Source of the DNA: Thermoleptolyngbya sichuanensis A183
GTDB lineage: Bacteria; Cyanobacteriota; Cyanobacteriia; Elainellales; Elainellaceae
NCBI RefSeq assembly: GCF_013177315.1
Contig: NZ_CP053661.1
Span: 248,001-312,000, forward strand
Direction of reading: 5' to 3'
Length of the DNA stretch: 64,000 nt
Every line of letters begins with the position of its first letter. The first letter of the stretch is position 1. Below are positions 644 through 6,774 of this stretch, in pieces. Below the pieces are notes generated by a model. The model was not told the DNA's origin, searched no databases, and saw nothing but the letters and a program-made list of their open reading frames with translations. The translations under genes were made by a program, and so were the position numbers.

Positions 644-1738
644 ATGAGTCAGTTGTGGTATCCATCGGGGCGATCGCCCCTGAAACGACGCAAGTTTTTA
701 CAATATGGGGCGATCGCCGCTGGCACGGGCCTCGTCGCAGCCTGCGCGTCTCAAGCGCCAACCTCGACCGAAGCGCCGGCCAGTCCTGCGGCTGGTGCTA
801 GCCCTGCGTCCGGTGAGCTAACCAAAATCACCTACGGCACCAACTGGTACGCCCAGGCAGAACACGGCGGCTTCTATCAGGCGGTTGCCACGGGCTTATA
901 CAAAGATGCAGGGCTGGACGTGACCATTAGCATGGGCGGGCCCCAGGTCAACGGCACGCAGTTGCTCATGGGCGGCGCGATCGACTTTTTCATGGGCTAC
1001 GCCGCCGATGCCATCAAGGCCGTCGAAGAGGGCATTCCCAAAGTCACCGTTGCCGCCATCTTCCAAAAAGACCCGCAAATCCTGATGGCGCACCCCGGCA
1101 CGGCCGACTCGCTTGAAGACCTGAAGGGTCGCCCCATTTTTATCTCCTCTTCGGCAAACGTGACCTATTGGCCGTTTTTGAGAGCCAAGTTTGGGTTCAC
1201 CGACGACCAGAAGCGACCCTACAACTTCAACCCTGGCCCATTTTTGCAAGACAAGCAAACCGCGCAGCAAGGCTATCTCAGTTCCGAGCCGCTGGCGATT
1301 AAAAAAGAAGGCGGCTTCGACCCCGTGGTATTTCTGATGGCAGACTACGGCTACGAACCGTATTCCACAACCATCGAGTGCAAGCGTGAACTGGTCGAAA
1401 GCAACCCCGACTTGGTGCAGCGGTTTGTGGATGCCTCCATCAAGGGCTGGTACAGCTATCTCTACGGCGATCCTTCGCCGGGTAACGAGCTCATCAAGAA
1501 AGACAACCCGGAGATGACCGACGAGCAAATAGCCTATGGCATCGAGAAGATGAAGGAATACGGCATTGTCGATTCGGGCGACGCACAGGTGAAAGGCATC
1601 GGCGCAATGACCGAGGAACGCTGGAAATCCTTCTATGACACGATGGCGGCAGAGGGCGTGTTTAAGCCGGAAACCGACTATACCCAGGCCTACACGCTCC
1701 AGTTTGTCAACAAAGGCCCGGATGCGTATAAGGTCTAA
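644..1738 (+). CDS. ABC transporter substrate-binding lipoprotein, NMT1/THI5-like
   Basis: This is the periplasmic binding protein of the importer completed by the next two genes. The N-terminus carries a twin-arginine-type signal (KRRKFLQYGAIAAG) followed by a lipobox (LVAAC), so it is probably exported folded and anchored as a lipoprotein. A Pro/Ala/Ser-rich linker leads into an NMT1/THI5 (TauA/SsuA-like) domain starting ITYGTNWYAQAEHGGFYQAV. I chose ATG 644 because a GAGGTGAG ribosome site lies about 8 bases upstream; a GTG three codons earlier (635) overlaps that site. The family binds sulfonates, nitrate or pyrimidine precursors. The cytosine-deaminase-like gene nearby favours a pyrimidine-like or other N-heterocyclic ligand, which is inference. 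Confidence 0.88.
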   Translation: MSQLWYPSGRSPLKRRKFLQYGAIAAGTGLVAACASQAPTSTEAPASPAAGASPASGELTKITYGTNWYAQAEHGGFYQAVATGLYKDAGLDVTISMGGPQVNGTQLLMGGAIDFFMGYAADAIKAVEEGIPKVTVAAIFQKDPQILMAHPGTADSLEDLKGRPIFISSSANVTYWPFLRAKFGFTDDQKRPYNFNPGPFLQDKQTAQQGYLSSEPLAIKKEGGFDPVVFLMADYGYEPYSTTIECKRELVESNPDLVQRFVDASIKGWYSYLYGDPSPGNELIKKDNPEMTDEQIAYGIEKMKEYGIVDSGDAQVKGIGAMTEERWKSFYDTMAAEGVFKPETDYTQAYTLQFVNKGPDAYKV

Positions 1739-1772
1739 GTCGAGTACGGTGTAAATGAAGCGCAGCCGGTGT

Positions 1773-1799
1773 AGCGGAATTGGCGCAACTGATTCCGCT
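1773..1799 (+). terminator. Intra-operon hairpin
   Basis: An 8-bp perfect stem (AGCGGAAT / ATTCCGCT) with an 11-base loop follows the binding-protein gene. There is no clear T-run, so it may be a processing or attenuation hairpin that lowers expression of the ATPase and permease relative to the binding protein. That role is inference. Confidence 0.4.
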
Positions 1800-1864
1800 G
1801 CCCCGCTGCCGAACTAGGCCTATGTAACTAGTCTCGCTCCACTAGCTTTAAGGAACCCCATCGC

Positions 1865-2674
1865 ATGAACACCCCAGCGGCGTTTACGCTCAGCGATGTC
1901 AGCAAAGTCTACTCCAATGGCACAGTGGCGCTGCACAATCTCGACCTGACGGTGCATGAGGGGCAGTTTGTCAGCCTGTTGGGCCCGTCGGGCTGCGGCA
2001 AAAGCACCGTGCTGCGGATGGTAGCAGGGCTGGGCAAGATGAGTTCGGGCAACCTGTATTGGGGCAGCAGTTCTCAGCGGAAGTTGGCCTACGTCTTTCA
2101 AGAGGCGGCGCTGATGCCTTGGGCGACGGTGGAAGACAACGTGGCGCTGCCGCTGAAGCTGGCAGGCCTGTCGAAGAGCGCGGCGCGGGAGGCGGTACAG
2201 GAGGCGATCGCCCTCGTTGCGCTGCAAGGCTTTGAAAAGGCCTACCCGCGAGAACTCTCCGGCGGGATGCGGATGCGCGTCTCCATCGCCCGCGCCCTGG
2301 TGACAAAGCCAGAAATCTTGCTGATGGACGAACCCTTTGGGGCGCTGGACGAAATGACCCGCAGCAAGCTCAACAGCGACCTGCTGAACCTCTGGGGGCA
2401 GAAGCAGTGGACGGTGGTGTTTGTCACCCACAATATCTACGAAGCGGTGTACCTGTCGAATCGTGTGGTGGTGATGGCGGCGCGTCCGGGGCGCGTGGTG
2501 GCGGATGTGGCGATCGCCGCTCCCTACCCCCGCACTGAGGAGTTTCGCACCACGCCACTGTTTAACGACTACTGTCGCGACATTTCCAACAGCCTGTCTC
2601 GCGCCGCTGGGCAGACGGCTGCATTACACCCCAGCGACAGCGTTTCCGCCAGCGTCGTAAACCAGCCCGCATAG
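1865..2674 (+). CDS. ABC transporter ATP-binding protein (TauB/SsuB type)
   Basis: This is the cytoplasmic ATPase of the importer. Walker A is GPSGCGKST near residue 40, the Q-loop is VFQEAALMPW, the signature is LSGGMRMRVSIARAL (a slightly altered LSGGQ), Walker B is ILLMDEPFGALDEMTR and the switch His is in FVTHNIYEAVYL. The 269-residue length is normal for the nitrate/sulfonate/taurine group. ATG 1865 has an AAGGAA site about 10 bases upstream. It lies 126 bases after the binding-protein gene and 79 before the permease gene. The substrate cannot be read from the ATPase itself. Confidence 0.93.
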   Translation: MNTPAAFTLSDVSKVYSNGTVALHNLDLTVHEGQFVSLLGPSGCGKSTVLRMVAGLGKMSSGNLYWGSSSQRKLAYVFQEAALMPWATVEDNVALPLKLAGLSKSAAREAVQEAIALVALQGFEKAYPRELSGGMRMRVSIARALVTKPEILLMDEPFGALDEMTRSKLNSDLLNLWGQKQWTVVFVTHNIYEAVYLSNRVVVMAARPGRVVADVAIAAPYPRTEEFRTTPLFNDYCRDISNSLSRAAGQTAALHPSDSVSASVVNQPA

Positions 2675-2737
2675 CGCCAACCCGATTTCGCGCCAACTCG
2701 ATTTCGCGCCAACTCGATTTCGCGCCAACCTGATGTC
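2674..2737. repeat. Four tandem 16-bp repeats
   Basis: Four units of GCGCCAACTCGATTTC run head to tail between the ATPase and permease genes; the first begins on the last base of the ATPase stop codon. Units 2 and 3 are identical, and units 1 and 4 differ by a few bases. They make up most of the gap between the two genes. Confidence 0.85.
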
Positions 2738-2753
2738 ATAAGGCAGTATTCCG

Positions 2754-3638
2754 ATGGACAATCTGTTTGACGTACCTCGCCAGCCCGAAGCCTCTGCCCC
2801 ATCCTCGGAATCTGGTCAACCGTCCCAACTGCAACGCCTGCTCTCGCCCGATATCCTGGCTCCGATTCTCGTGGGCCTGTTGATGCTGGCGCTGTGGGAA
2901 CTTGGCGTGCGCCTGACCAACACCCCCCCCTACATCCTGCCGGGGCCGATTCTGGTGCTGCAAACGCTGGTGCGAGAATGGGGGACGCTGTTCCCCTCGC
3001 TGCTGATCACGATGAAAATCACGCTGTTTGCCTTCCTGGCGGCGGTGGTGTCGGGCCTGCTGGTTTCTGTGCTGTTTACCCAGAGCAAGTGGATCGAGCG
3101 CAGTTTCTTTCCCTACGCGGTGATTTTGCAGACGACCCCGATTGTGGCGATCGCCCCCCTGATCATCCTCTGGGTGCGGCAGTTGGTTCCGGGTACTGCG
3201 TCTACCTTTGTGTCACTGGTCATCTGCGCCTGGCTGGTGGCCTTTTTCCCTATCCTGTCCAACACGACTCTGGGCCTCAACAGCGCCGACCATAACCTAA
3301 TTAACCTGTTTCAGCTTTATCGCGCTTCCCGCTGGCAAACCCTGCGCTACCTGCGGCTGCCCAGCGCCTTGCCCTATTTCCTGGGCGGCTTGCGAATTAG
3401 CGGCGGGCTAGCGCTGATCGGCGCAGTCGTGGCGGAATTCGTCGCGGGCACAGGCGGCACCAGTTCTGGGCTGGCCTACCAAATCCTGATCTCCAGCTTC
3501 AACCTCCAGATTCCCCGCATGTTTGCTGCCCTCTTGCTGACCACCGTACTGGGCATCCTGATTTTTGTCTTGCTGACGATGCTCTCCGACCGCCTCCTGC
3601 GCCACTGGCACGAAAGCGCCGTCCGCCGAGAAAATTAA
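2754..3638 (+). CDS. ABC transporter permease (TauC/SsuC type)
   Basis: This is the inner-membrane channel subunit of the importer. A polar N-terminus of about 45 residues is followed by hydrophobic spans, for example ILAPILVGLLMLALWELGV and LLITMKITLFAFLAAVVSGL. The EAA-type coupling region appears as LFRAS-like YRASRWQTLRYLRLPSALPY, with the conserved Gly following in LGGLRISGGLALIGAVVAEF. The length of 294 residues is slightly above the usual 250-280 because of the N-terminal extension. Its stop codon overlaps the end of the convergent DUF2087 gene by four bases. Confidence 0.92.
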   Translation: MDNLFDVPRQPEASAPSSESGQPSQLQRLLSPDILAPILVGLLMLALWELGVRLTNTPPYILPGPILVLQTLVREWGTLFPSLLITMKITLFAFLAAVVSGLLVSVLFTQSKWIERSFFPYAVILQTTPIVAIAPLIILWVRQLVPGTASTFVSLVICAWLVAFFPILSNTTLGLNSADHNLINLFQLYRASRWQTLRYLRLPSALPYFLGGLRISGGLALIGAVVAEFVAGTGGTSSGLAYQILISSFNLQIPRMFAALLLTTVLGILIFVLLTMLSDRLLRHWHESAVRREN

Positions 3639-3922
3639 GCTGATTCCTTGGGTGGCAGCCAGTAGGCAGAGCCGTTTCGTTCCCGCTGGAGCAGGCCGTG
3701 TTCAAACAGTTCGCGGCGGAGTAGAGCCGGGTCGCAGAACGTGTGATGTTCATTGAGGAGCTGGTTTACCTCGCGTTCGGTGTAGGTTTTGCCCGCAGCG
3801 AATTTTTCAGCCAGGTACCACAACACCAGCGTTTGCACCCGCGCTCGATTGCGCTTGGACGGCCAGCGCGTCACCCGGCCCTGGTCATCCAGGTAGGGCT
3901 GGAGTTCTGTAAAGTCGATCAT
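3635..3922 (-). CDS. DUF2087 domain protein
   Basis: This 95-residue protein is almost entirely a DUF2087 domain: YLDDQGRVTRWPSKRNRARV, then YLAEKFAAGKTYTEREVNQL, LNEHHTFCDPALLRRELFEH and GLLQRERNGSAYW. The fold is predicted to be winged-helix-like, and in other bacteria the domain occurs alone or at the end of ArsR/MarR-like regulators. A DNA-binding role is therefore possible but not shown. It faces the transporter genes and overlaps the permease stop codon, so it may be co-selected with the importer or simply a neighbour. Confidence 0.85.
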   Translation of the reverse strand: MIDFTELQPYLDDQGRVTRWPSKRNRARVQTLVLWYLAEKFAAGKTYTEREVNQLLNEHHTFCDPALLRRELFEHGLLQRERNGSAYWLPPKESA

Positions 3923-4034
3923 TTCACCCCGCTCCTCCGTCTAATTTGGGATTTTGGATTCGTGATTTTGGCTCACGATCTGAGGTAGGTTTGCAAAGTG
4001 CCAACCTGAATCCCCGATTTCCAATTCCTACACT

Positions 4035-5453
4035 ATGCCGCAACTCGATTTCGCCCGCCTGAATGAACCGCACTACTGGCTATGCAACGCCCATGTTCCC
4101 CGGCCGCTGCTGCCTGATTCGCTGGTGTTGCCTGAGTCGGCGGGCATTCTGGCGCAGGATAACCTGGCGCAGGTGGATCTGGAAATTTTAGATGGCGCAA
4201 TTCGCAGGATTTGCCCCAGTGCGGATGCGGCGGGTGAGGCAGGAGGAGAACCCGTGCCGACGGTTGACCTGAAGGGCGGCATGGTGTGGGCTGGGCTGGT
4301 CGATTTGCATACGCATCTGGATAAGGGGCACGTTTGGGGGCGATCGCCCAACTATTCTGCAACCTTTGAGGAAGCGCTGGAGACGATCCGCGCAGATGCC
4401 AGCAAACACTGGGATGCAGAGGATGTCTATCGCCGCATGGAGTTTGGGCTAAAGTGCAGCTATGCCCACGGCACGACTGCCCTCCGCACCCATATAGATT
4501 CCTTTGGCGACCAAGCGGCGGTGAGTTGGAGCGTGTTTAATGCGCTTCAGCAAGACTGGAGCGATCGCCTCGCGCTAAAAGCCGTTTCCCTGGTAACACT
4601 GGACTATTACCAAACTCCAGAGGGCGAAATCTTGGCCGATCTAGTTGCCGAGATGGGCGGCATTCTGGGCGGCGTGACGGAAATGGGCCCCCATTTGGAA
4701 GCCCAGCTTGATCGCCTGTTTACCCTGGCCATTGATCGGGGCCTCGACATCGATCTGCACACCGACGAAAGCGGCGACCCCAACGACATTACCCTGCGCT
4801 ACGTGGCCGAGGCCGCCCTGCGCCGCGATTTTCGCGGGCAGATTGTCTGCGGCCACTGTTGCAGCCTGGCCGTGCAGTCTGACGACGAAGCCCAGAAAAC
4901 CATCGATCTGGTGAAAGCTGCCCGCATCGGCGTGGTCAGCCTGCCCATGTGCAATCTGTATCTGCAAGACCGAAATCAGCGCTCGGCCCTCAGGGGGCAG
5001 GTGGCGGCGGCTCACCCAGGCACTCACCCACCCGCCCTGCGACAGACACCCACCCGCACCCCCCGCTGGCGCGGCATTACGCTGCTGCACGAACTGAAAC
5101 ATGCGGGCGTTCCGGTGGCGATCGCCAGCGACAACTGCCGCGATCCGTTCTATGGCTTTGGCGACCACGACGGGCTGGAGGTGTTCACCCAGGGCGTACG
5201 GATTGCCCAGCTCGATGCGCCCTATGGCGACTGGAGCCGGGTCGTGACGACCACACCGGCCGACCTGATGGGCCTGCCCACCGTGGGCCGCATTGCGCCA
5301 GGGCTACCCGCCGATCTGATTCTCTGCGCGGCTCGCTACTTCAGCGAACTGCTGGCCCGTCCCCAAGGCGATCGCACGGTATTGCGCCAGGGCAAACCTA
5401 TCGACACAACCCTGCCCGACTACGCAGAGCTAGACGATCTGCTGCTGAAGTAG
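4035..5453 (+). CDS. codA: Cytosine deaminase-like metal-dependent amidohydrolase
   Basis: This is an amidohydrolase-superfamily enzyme of the CodA group. Metal-binding and catalytic elements are visible in order: DLHTHLDKGH near residue 91, a His in DIDLHTDESGD, GHCCSL, and the catalytic Asp in IASDNCRDPFYGFGD. CodA hydrolyses cytosine to uracil and ammonia; relatives act on isoguanine, creatinine or triazines. An extra loop rich in Pro, Thr and Arg (about residues 317-350, after LYLQDRNQ) makes the protein longer than the roughly 420-residue family norm. The ABC importer upstream and Rieske oxygenase downstream suggest joint uptake and breakdown of an N-heterocycle. The exact substrate is unknown. 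Confidence 0.82.
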   Translation: MPQLDFARLNEPHYWLCNAHVPRPLLPDSLVLPESAGILAQDNLAQVDLEILDGAIRRICPSADAAGEAGGEPVPTVDLKGGMVWAGLVDLHTHLDKGHVWGRSPNYSATFEEALETIRADASKHWDAEDVYRRMEFGLKCSYAHGTTALRTHIDSFGDQAAVSWSVFNALQQDWSDRLALKAVSLVTLDYYQTPEGEILADLVAEMGGILGGVTEMGPHLEAQLDRLFTLAIDRGLDIDLHTDESGDPNDITLRYVAEAALRRDFRGQIVCGHCCSLAVQSDDEAQKTIDLVKAARIGVVSLPMCNLYLQDRNQRSALRGQVAAAHPGTHPPALRQTPTRTPRWRGITLLHELKHAGVPVAIASDNCRDPFYGFGDHDGLEVFTQGVRIAQLDAPYGDWSRVVTTTPADLMGLPTVGRIAPGLPADLILCAARYFSELLARPQGDRTVLRQGKPIDTTLPDYAELDDLLLK

Positions 5454-5555
5454 CGCTGAACTAGATTGCCCAGGGCAGCACTAACACCGGAACTGACGCA
5501 GTGGACTGGTTTCCCGCGAGTACCGCCTGCAAGCTGCGAACCATACTTCTGATTT

Positions 5556-5599
5556 AGGACTTACGCAGTTGGACGATTTCTGGCAAGTGCGTAAGTCCT
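5556..5599. repeat. Hairpin MITE, type D, internally deleted copy
   Basis: This 44-base inverted-repeat element starts AGGACTTACGCA and ends TGCGTAAGTCCT. It keeps the termini and a few interior bases (GTTGGACGATTTCT, CAAG) of the 90-base copies at 20448-20537 and 48036-48125 but lacks their central hairpin arm. It lies in the gap between the amidohydrolase and Rieske genes. Confidence 0.85.
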
Positions 5600-5745
5600 G
5601 TGATTTTTCAATACTAAAAACTTATCGCCTGGGGAAAGGGCTTGCCTGTAGTAGAGGGGGATACAGTTCTCAGCCGTCTGTCCGTCTTAGCATCGGCTAG
5701 GATCTCGACCGCTCAAGCACCTACAGGTTTTTCCTTCAAATTCCT

Positions 5746-6774
5746 ATGACTGCCATTTTCACCCTGCCTCGGGATTGCACCTTCAGCCCTTCTGATTGGG
5801 AAGTGCTTGCCCCATTTTGGTATCCCGTTGCCTTTGCCCACGACGTTACCGATAAGCCCGTGGGGGTGCGCCTGCTCGACGAGCGGCTAGTGCTTTACCG
5901 GGCGGGCGACGGCGGCGTAATAGCAGCAAAAGACCTCTGCCTGCATCGCGGCGCTCCCCTCAGCATGGGCTGGGTTGAAGATGGCGAACTGGTCTGCGCC
6001 TACCACGGCGTTCGGTATACCCAGGACGGCCAATGCGTCTGCATTCCGGCTGCCCCCGATGCCGCAATTCCCAAGCGTCTCCGCCTCACGACCTACCCGG
6101 TGCGAGAGCAGTACGGACTGATCTGGGTACGGCTGGTGGACAATGGCCCGGTTCCCTTTCCCGAATTTGATGCGTGGGATAACCCCGACTACATCCAGAT
6201 CATTCCCGATTCGGTTTATCTAGATGCGGCGGCGGGTCGTCAAATCGAGGGCTTTCTGGATGTCAGCCACTTTGCCTTTGTCCACAAAGACTCCTTTGGG
6301 GAGCGGGATAATCCTGAAGTGCCCGACTATCCCGTGACCTTCACCGAGGGCGGATTTACGGCGGACTACGTGAGTTCCGTCAGCAATCTGCCCCACGGCT
6401 ACAAACACCTCAGCCCGCCAGGGTTTCAGTGGCGGCGGCTGTTTCAGGCCTGGCTGCCGTTCACGGTCAAGCTCTCGGTCACATTCCCCAACGGAATGCT
6501 GCATATTCTGAATGCGGCCAGCCCCATTTCAGCCCGCAAGACCCGCGTATTTTCGCCCCTCTGCCGCAACTTTGATAAAGACGCGCCTCTGGAAGAAACG
6601 CTGGCCTTCAACCACCAGGTTTTTGGCGAAGATAAGGAAATTGTCGAGGAACTCTGGCCTGAGGATTTGCCGATTAACCTGGCGGATGAAGTCCACATCG
6701 CGGGCGACAAAAGCTCCATTACCTACCGCAAGCTGCTGGCCAAGCTGGGACTGGGGCGATCGTTTACGAGCTAA
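5746..6774 (+). CDS. Rieske [2Fe-2S] aromatic-ring/O-demethylase type oxygenase
   Basis: This is the terminal oxygenase component of a Rieske non-heme iron oxygenase. The Rieske cluster ligands are in CLHRGAP...CAYHGV (CxH...CxxH, residues about 65-88). The mononuclear iron site is in the segment EGFLDVSHFAFVH, which carries the expected Asp and two His residues. The overall order resembles vanillate O-demethylase (VanA)-like proteins of 340-350 residues. No reductase partner is adjacent, so a general ferredoxin would have to supply electrons. Position after the importer and amidohydrolase suggests oxidation of the imported compound, which is inference. Confidence 0.88.
   Translation: MTAIFTLPRDCTFSPSDWEVLAPFWYPVAFAHDVTDKPVGVRLLDERLVLYRAGDGGVIAAKDLCLHRGAPLSMGWVEDGELVCAYHGVRYTQDGQCVCIPAAPDAAIPKRLRLTTYPVREQYGLIWVRLVDNGPVPFPEFDAWDNPDYIQIIPDSVYLDAAAGRQIEGFLDVSHFAFVHKDSFGERDNPEVPDYPVTFTEGGFTADYVSSVSNLPHGYKHLSPPGFQWRRLFQAWLPFTVKLSVTFPNGMLHILNAASPISARKTRVFSPLCRNFDKDAPLEETLAFNHQVFGEDKEIVEELWPEDLPINLADEVHIAGDKSSITYRKLLAKLGLGRSFTS

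Follow-up and report, generated by a model that had tools for sequence, protein, structure and literature searches.

In the 64-kb stretch of the Thermoleptolyngbya sichuanensis A183 genome analyzed here (G000:C1:248001-312000, hereafter the window; the genome is a single contig of 5.5 Mb), an NMT1-type ATP-binding cassette (ABC) importer and an amidohydrolase annotated as "cytosine deaminase" form a row that is conserved in cyanobacteria and Rhizobium. We consider it probable, with moderate confidence, that importer and amidohydrolase together constitute a module for the uptake and breakdown of folates or pterins. Judged from sequence, the oxidation partner of the deaminase is a flavin adenine dinucleotide (FAD)-dependent enzyme encoded elsewhere in the genome, and the Rieske oxygenase gene that follows the deaminase gene in the window is a chance neighbor. 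An earlier note on this DNA had combined importer, deaminase, and Rieske oxygenase into one route of uptake, deamination, and oxidation of a single compound. The idea that an oxidation step accompanies the deaminase was borne out in the form of the FAD enzyme; the assignment of this step to the Rieske protein was not supported.

The five open reading frames described in the note are all present on the plus strand. Three of them encode the importer, namely, a substrate-binding protein (635-1738, Pfam NMT1, with an alternative in-frame ATG at 644 that was the start given earlier), an ATPase (1865-2674, Pfam ABC_tran), and a permease (2754-3638, Pfam BPD_transp_1). They are followed by the gene for the amidohydrolase, the proposed folate/pterin deaminase (4035-5453, Pfam Amidohydro_3/1), and by the Rieske oxygenase gene (5746-6774, Pfam Rieske and VanA_C). 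The N-terminus of the binding protein, as read from the sequence, carries the twin-arginine motif RRKFLQYG and then a lipobox-like VAAC, in agreement with its previous description as a protein with a twin-arginine translocation (Tat) signal.

To analyze the conservation of the row, we used nine window proteins as queries against 100 regions of other genomes that surround a deaminase relative, 92 after removal of duplicates. The permease gene was located at most 2.4 kb upstream of the deaminase gene in 34 of the 92 distinct loci, the ATPase gene was part of the conserved row in 23, and all three importer genes preceded the deaminase gene in 20. The binding protein gene was missing upstream in 11 of the 30 permease loci having at least 4.5 kb of upstream sequence. 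The glutathione synthase gene gshB, which in T. sichuanensis lies directly upstream of the importer genes (L151:9072-10154; profile score of 433 bits at a cut-off of 299) and ends within the first 160 bases of the window, was found in 17 of the 92 loci, 14 times with the importer in between and 3 times without the permease.

On three Rhizobium plasmids (L163 to L165) the gene order is creatininase, LysR, binding protein, ATPase, permease, deaminase, FAD enzyme, and NAD(P)H/FMN oxidoreductase, followed on two of them (L163 and L164) by RidA. The window proteins share 59% (binding protein, over 300 residues), 52% (permease), and 48.7% (deaminase) identity with their L163 counterparts. Comparable rows are present in L201 (Rhizobium), L202 (Mameliella), L203 (Pantoea), L204 (Palleronia), and L205 (Comamonadaceae); those on the Pantoea and Comamonadaceae plasmids are distant gamma- and betaproteobacterial versions, with a PDR/VanB reductase in Pantoea. 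A second "cytosine deaminase" row was seen on plasmid pRspBT04e of Rhizobium sp. BT04 (L200:3312-9320), composed of an importer, an isopenicillin-N-synthase-like oxygenase, LysR, and the deaminase, with no FAD gene annotated within the stretch. T. sichuanensis also possesses a creatininase-family protein (37% identical), encoded at G000:C1:5215733 away from the window row. This relative adds little, because matches occur in 56 of 60 genomes, including some that lack the deaminase.

The amidohydrolase scores 648.5 bits against the NCBIfam model NF005759 (PRK07583, "cytosine deaminase"), whose cut-off is 403. We aligned 98 sequences, i.e., the window protein, those of the 92 loci, three from Rhizobium, and those of genomes G036 and G046. 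The CodA-type metal site (His-x-His, His, Glu, His, Asp) is present in the window protein, and its ligands His92, His94, His242, Glu245, His274, and Asp366 are invariant in all 98 sequences, as are Lys97 and Asn367. Gln156 of Escherichia coli cytosine deaminase (1k6w), which contacts the pyrimidine, is retained in 4r7w and AtzC according to the alignment and occurs in none of the 98 family members, where the position is occupied by Ser (53 sequences), Pro (26), Thr (16, the window protein among them), or Ala, Val, and Gly (one each). Gln is likewise missing at this position in four more distant proteobacterial homologues and in a second Rhizobium type. In addition, E. coli Asp314 is replaced by Asn in 98 of 98 sequences and Trp319 by Phe in 97 of 98. 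Because Gln156 is absent throughout, the name "cytosine deaminase" is doubtful for this family.

The earlier note had also pointed to an unusual loop in the deaminase. An insertion of 29 residues between NLYLQDR and PRWRG is indeed present (residues 314-342, encoded at 4974-5060 on the plus strand), and its length in the 98 homologues is 5 residues in 67, 6 to 11 in five, and 20 to 34 in 26. In the structural model, which has a predicted local distance difference test (pLDDT) score of 80.9, values fall below 50 at residues 317-339. Since lengths in the family range from 5 to 34 residues and the pLDDT is low, we regard the loop as a variable insertion, and its length variation led us to reject it as a functional feature.

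The gene for the FAD_binding_4 enzyme of T. sichuanensis is located at G000:C1:821420-822766, 568 kb from the deaminase gene, and the cyanobacterial and Rhizobium enzymes share 47% identity. We surveyed 291 genomes of the phylum that were at least 95% complete. Among the matches listed, the deaminase family occurred in 79 genomes and the FAD enzyme in 89; both genes were present in 75, the deaminase alone in 4, the FAD enzyme alone in 14, and neither in 198. The count of 79 leaves out paralogues below 220 bits and a broken copy in G188 and includes deaminase matches of 220 to 276 bits only in the genomes designated f2, presumably picocyanobacteria, in which the deaminase and FAD genes are neighbors. 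A Fisher test of the co-occurrence, which ignores relatedness and is therefore descriptive only, gave p values of ~1e-49 and, without f2, ~1e-29. In all 36 f2 genomes with the deaminase (1.6 to 3.7 Mb; a count that covers genomes with matches, so that f2 genomes without both genes would not appear), the FAD gene is adjacent and on the same strand, with a gap of 44 to 558 bases (median, 78). The deaminase thus retains one partner down to a genome size of 1.6 Mb. Among the 92 cyanobacterial loci, the FAD gene lies at most 2.5 kb behind the deaminase gene in nine. We found no description of the cyanobacterial deaminase-FAD pair in listings of the open-licence literature.

The FAD enzyme matches PDB entries 6v42 and 6v43 over its full length (expectation value [E] of 4e-132; 45% identity in the alignment), and the T. 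sichuanensis protein matches 6v42 with an E value of 3.3e-131. The title of entry 6v42 reads "Crystal structure of the flavin oxygenase with cofactor bound involved in folate catabolism." This kinship was established by sequence comparison; a structural model of the enzyme served only to reach the title. In the 12 plasmid records nearest to 6v42 (66% identical; the best 12 of 141 matched), the deaminase gene stands directly beside the FAD gene in at least seven (CP131057, CP050515, CP053206, NZ_CP053440, NZ_CP071679, NZ_CP088105, and NZ_CP121642). A proteome study of Rhizobium leguminosarum lists a "cytosine deaminase like" protein (RLV_169) and an "FAD-binding dehydrogenase" (RLV_170), both as specific to pea bacteroids (PMC7950203).

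As the FAD partner is related to 6v42 and the deaminase gene stands beside at least seven of the 12 nearest FAD genes, folate or pterin catabolism is the simplest reading of the row. In the proposed sequence of steps, the importer would take up folate or pterin fragments, the amidohydrolase would hydrolytically deaminate the pterin ring, and the FAD-dependent oxygenase would oxidize the deamination product. The 2-amino-4-oxo pattern of pterins could be attacked by a deaminase of the amidohydrolase superfamily, and a pterin or folate is a likelier substrate than a free pyrimidine. The row would thereby supply a putative folate/pterin ABC importer.

Pterins are photosensitizers, and a clearance of pterins formed by light would for this reason be an attractive role for the module. 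It is possible, although we hold this only tentatively, that many cyanobacteria, including those with streamlined genomes of 1.6 Mb, have a dedicated folate/pterin disposal system consisting of a misnamed pterin deaminase and a flavin oxygenase related to glycolate and D-lactate oxidases, which would clear pterins arising from folate broken by light or ultraviolet (UV) radiation, the version with the importer recapturing them from outside. If true, such a system would account for the UV sensitivity of codA mutants of Synechococcus elongatus and for the link to gshB: according to a transposon screen of this organism, loss of codA and of gshB lowers fitness under UV (PMC9659335). Synpcc7942_0567 stands beside codA in the list of that screen (PMC9659335); its identity with the FAD enzyme is unsupported, and we make no such claim. 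Should folate or a pterin prove to be the substrate, the module would show what becomes of a photolabile vitamin in phototrophic organisms and would open the codA phenotype under UV to testing. In a published pathway table for Prochlorococcus, codA is listed under pyrimidine salvage (PMC5974335); if that gene belongs to the family of the window deaminase, it probably does something else.

Several observations weigh against a folate/pterin pathway. The term "folate catabolism" derives from a PDB title, for which no paper was found in searches of the open-licence literature, and the FAD enzyme was modeled poorly (pLDDT of 50). The FAD gene lies outside the window and is close to the deaminase gene in only the nine cyanobacterial loci mentioned above, and 14 of the 291 genomes have the FAD enzyme without the deaminase. 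Binding proteins 57 to 72% identical to that of the window occur in genomes lacking the deaminase (G042, G054, and G055). The structures closest to the deaminase model are those of the 5-methylcytosine deaminase 4r7w, the cytosine deaminase 1k6w, and AtzC, with template modeling scores on the query of 0.71, 0.72, and 0.70, respectively. Membership of RLV_169 and RLV_170 in the deaminase-FAD row is presumptive, as is that of S. elongatus codA in the family of the window deaminase; in the deaminase search, S. elongatus was among the 10 control genomes with a match, and one of the 14 controls exceeded the family cut-off.

A further such observation concerns purines. In L182, L183, and L185, a paralogous importer, whose binding protein is 61 to 65% identical, is encoded beside Rieske genes and an amidohydrolase resembling 8-oxoguanine deaminase, and in Proteobacteria xanthine (NMT1-motif) riboswitches precede genes for NMT1/THI5-like and tauA-like transporters and for hpxD/E-like oxygenases (PMC7373994). 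Such importers may therefore carry purines, and we retain as the main rival the view that the compound taken up and deaminated is a purine or a purine breakdown product such as guanine, 8-oxoguanine, or xanthine, all clusters, those with Rieske genes included, serving purine scavenging. The presence of a guanine deaminase gene next to three of ten orthologues of the window Rieske gene is in line with it. We nevertheless judge it unlikely, as the usual partner of the deaminase is the 6v42-type flavin enzyme and not a Rieske or purine enzyme, the window contains no Rfam family at gathering score, and the paralogous cluster has an amidohydrolase whose best score is with another subfamily. A decarboxylase of purine breakdown (OHCU decarboxylase) exceeds its cut-off in 41 of 60 genomes, that of T. 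sichuanensis among them, and does not separate the two readings.

The paralogous clusters (L182:5946-12506 in G014, L183:6369-13696 in G003, and L185:5731-11292 in G024) each comprise an NMT1 binding protein paralogue, an ATPase, a permease, one or two Rieske genes, and the amidohydrolase, which is closest to 8-oxoguanine deaminase at scores under the cut-off of 532 (246, 266, and 256 bits). A divergently transcribed GntR/FCD regulator was confirmed by test in L182, and a similar-looking one is present in L185; L184 has only the binding protein paralogue and two Rieske genes. These clusters show the architecture that the earlier note had imagined for the window, built from other genes.

That the annotation is correct and the row serves cytosine or 5-methylcytosine deamination with a cytosine importer is improbable. 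The NF005759 score, the closeness to 4r7w and 1k6w, and the conserved metal ligands agree with the annotation; the loss of Gln156 and the exchanges of Asp314 and Trp319 across the family do not, and FAD oxygenase, creatininase, and RidA would be superfluous for cytosine deamination. Transport of a thiamin pyrimidine precursor (4-amino-5-hydroxymethyl-2-methylpyrimidine [HMP] or its formylaminopyrimidine relative [FAMP]) by a ThiXYZ-like system is very improbable, for although ThiXYZ likewise combines an NMT1/THI5-type binding protein with an ATPase and a permease, and the FAMP-binding protein 3ix1 is among the nearest structures of the window binding protein (E value of 1e-10), no thiamin pyrophosphate riboswitch is present, as nothing in the 64 kb reaches the gathering score of an Rfam family, no thiamin gene was recognized by eye, no profile search being made, among the 40 largest neighbor clusters of the 92 deaminase loci, and deamination of a 4-aminopyrimidine would destroy the precursor. 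Thiamin control of the importer was rejected on the same lack of a riboswitch match in the window.

Equally improbable is a pathway specific to this lineage in which importer, deaminase, and Rieske oxygenase share one compound. The five genes are co-stranded, only ~290 bases separate the deaminase and Rieske genes, with no terminator-like site on the plus strand of this gap in a terminator scan, and a parallel form made of other genes exists in L182, L183, and L185. However, at an E value of 1e-8 no Rieske homologue was found in any of the 100 deaminase loci scanned (92 distinct, 82 of these with at least 1.5 kb downstream). Orthologues of the Rieske protein (at least 57% identity) are present in 11 of 60 genomes, T. 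sichuanensis included, and in all ten other carriers the gene is on another contig than the deaminase gene; the stretches around these ten, several of which end at contig ends, contain no deaminase gene. In G001, of the same genus (92% identity), the genes for acetolactate synthase (ALS), succinate-semialdehyde dehydrogenase (SSADH), and LysR are kept beside the Rieske gene, and the upstream side differs and lacks the deaminase. The earlier note had itself proposed that its pathway would be refuted by relatives in which the genes for importer, deaminase, and oxygenase always lie apart, and this is the situation for the Rieske gene. As none lies near the deaminase gene in relatives, the five-gene pathway fails that test with respect to the Rieske gene, which we rejected as a pathway member; of the proposed cluster, the conserved association of importer and deaminase stands.

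The Rieske protein itself has an intact cluster motif, CxH...CxxH (CLHRGAPLSMGWVEDGELVCAYH), and an intact iron site, DxxHx4H (DVSHFAFVH). Its description as VanA-like is correct with respect to Pfam VanA_C, but the best solved matches are NdmA (6ick, E value of 1e-51) and NdmB (6icl, E value of 2e-41), followed by SxtDIOX and SxtT. A survey of the neighbors by open reading frames and Pfam revealed no reductase gene next to it, as had been noted before. The 11 orthologues group together in a single clade (support, 100/98) that is distinct from the Rieske genes beside guanine deaminase genes or the paralogous importer. The three orthologues adjoined by guanine deaminase are those in L155, L159, and L161 (in L161 with the deaminase in two frames), where a purine permease (L159) and a ribokinase (L161) are also encoded nearby. 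Because some orthologues lie in such purine-breakdown rows, the window enzyme probably oxidizes a purine or a similar ring.

Xanthine dehydrogenase exceeds the cut-off in 7 of the 11 carriers, is in two pieces in G033 and a fragment in G035, and has no match in G012 and G045. With the enzyme present in seven carriers, the window-type Rieske protein is probably not a simple substitute in the manner of an HpxD/E hypoxanthine-xanthine oxygenase, and the idea of a plain xanthine dehydrogenase replacement was dropped. The other Rieske group, whose genes stand beside guanine deaminase genes, fits such a replacement better, xanthine dehydrogenase over the cut-off being absent from G040, G041, G015, and G025 and present in G004. 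In G040, L191:6551-10548 contains in a row HpxO (FAD urate hydroxylase; 601.8 bits at a cut-off of 500), a Rieske oxygenase, and guanine deaminase; as this genome has no xanthine dehydrogenase match, the row is a candidate for a Rieske-based route of xanthine oxidation in a cyanobacterium. In G042, L189:7770-15707 carries three tandem Rieske genes, one open frame, and then a frame of 1127 residues with a xanthine-dehydrogenase-like match under the cut-off.

As for the remaining surroundings, a sixth gene that the earlier note had missed encodes a DUF2087 protein (3635-3922, minus strand; Pfam PF09860, 94.8 bits) between the permease and deaminase genes. This antisense arrangement is found in three genomes, those of the window, L031 (~7596), and L041 (~10317), with no further DUF2087 match in the 100 deaminase loci scanned. 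AlsS-like and SSADH-like genes lie beyond the Rieske gene on the opposite strand. A scan for promoters and terminators was no richer than shuffled sequences (2 versus 2.3 and 6 versus 6.9). In 12 of the 92 loci (e.g., L063, L073, L076, L101, L106, and L109), queC starts 1.3 to 1.8 kb downstream of the deaminase start; its identity was profile-tested in L063 only.

Compared with known systems, the window Rieske protein finds its best solved matches in the methylxanthine demethylases NdmA and NdmB (6ick and 6icl), with no reductase gene seen nearby. Bacterial purine oxidation genes (hpxD, hpxO, and NMT1 transporters under the xanthine riboswitch) resemble the HpxO-Rieske-guanine deaminase row of G040 and share the theme of NMT1 importer, Rieske protein, and amidohydrolase, whereas the importer-deaminase row of the window shows neither a purine enzyme nor a riboswitch. 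The window deaminase has in common with AtzC, the N-isopropylammelide amidohydrolase (2qt3), the motif HTHxDK at the first metal site, but AtzC has Gln at the position of Gln156 and is only 20 to 21% identical. With E. coli cytosine deaminase (1k6w) and Klebsiella 5-methylcytosine deaminase (4r7w) it shares the fold and the metal ligands, and it differs from both in the loss of Gln156, the exchanges Asp314 to Asn and Trp319 to Phe, and the invariant Lys97. The flavin oxygenase 6v42/6v43 is matched over the full length by the FAD companion of the deaminase and is 66% identical to Rhizobium copies encoded beside the deaminase, the copy of T. sichuanensis being 568 kb away. In the pRL12-type row of Rhizobium (L163), the importer and deaminase genes are the same and are arranged as in the window; there, FAD enzyme and creatininase-family protein belong to the row, whereas in T. 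sichuanensis the row ends at the deaminase and both are encoded elsewhere.

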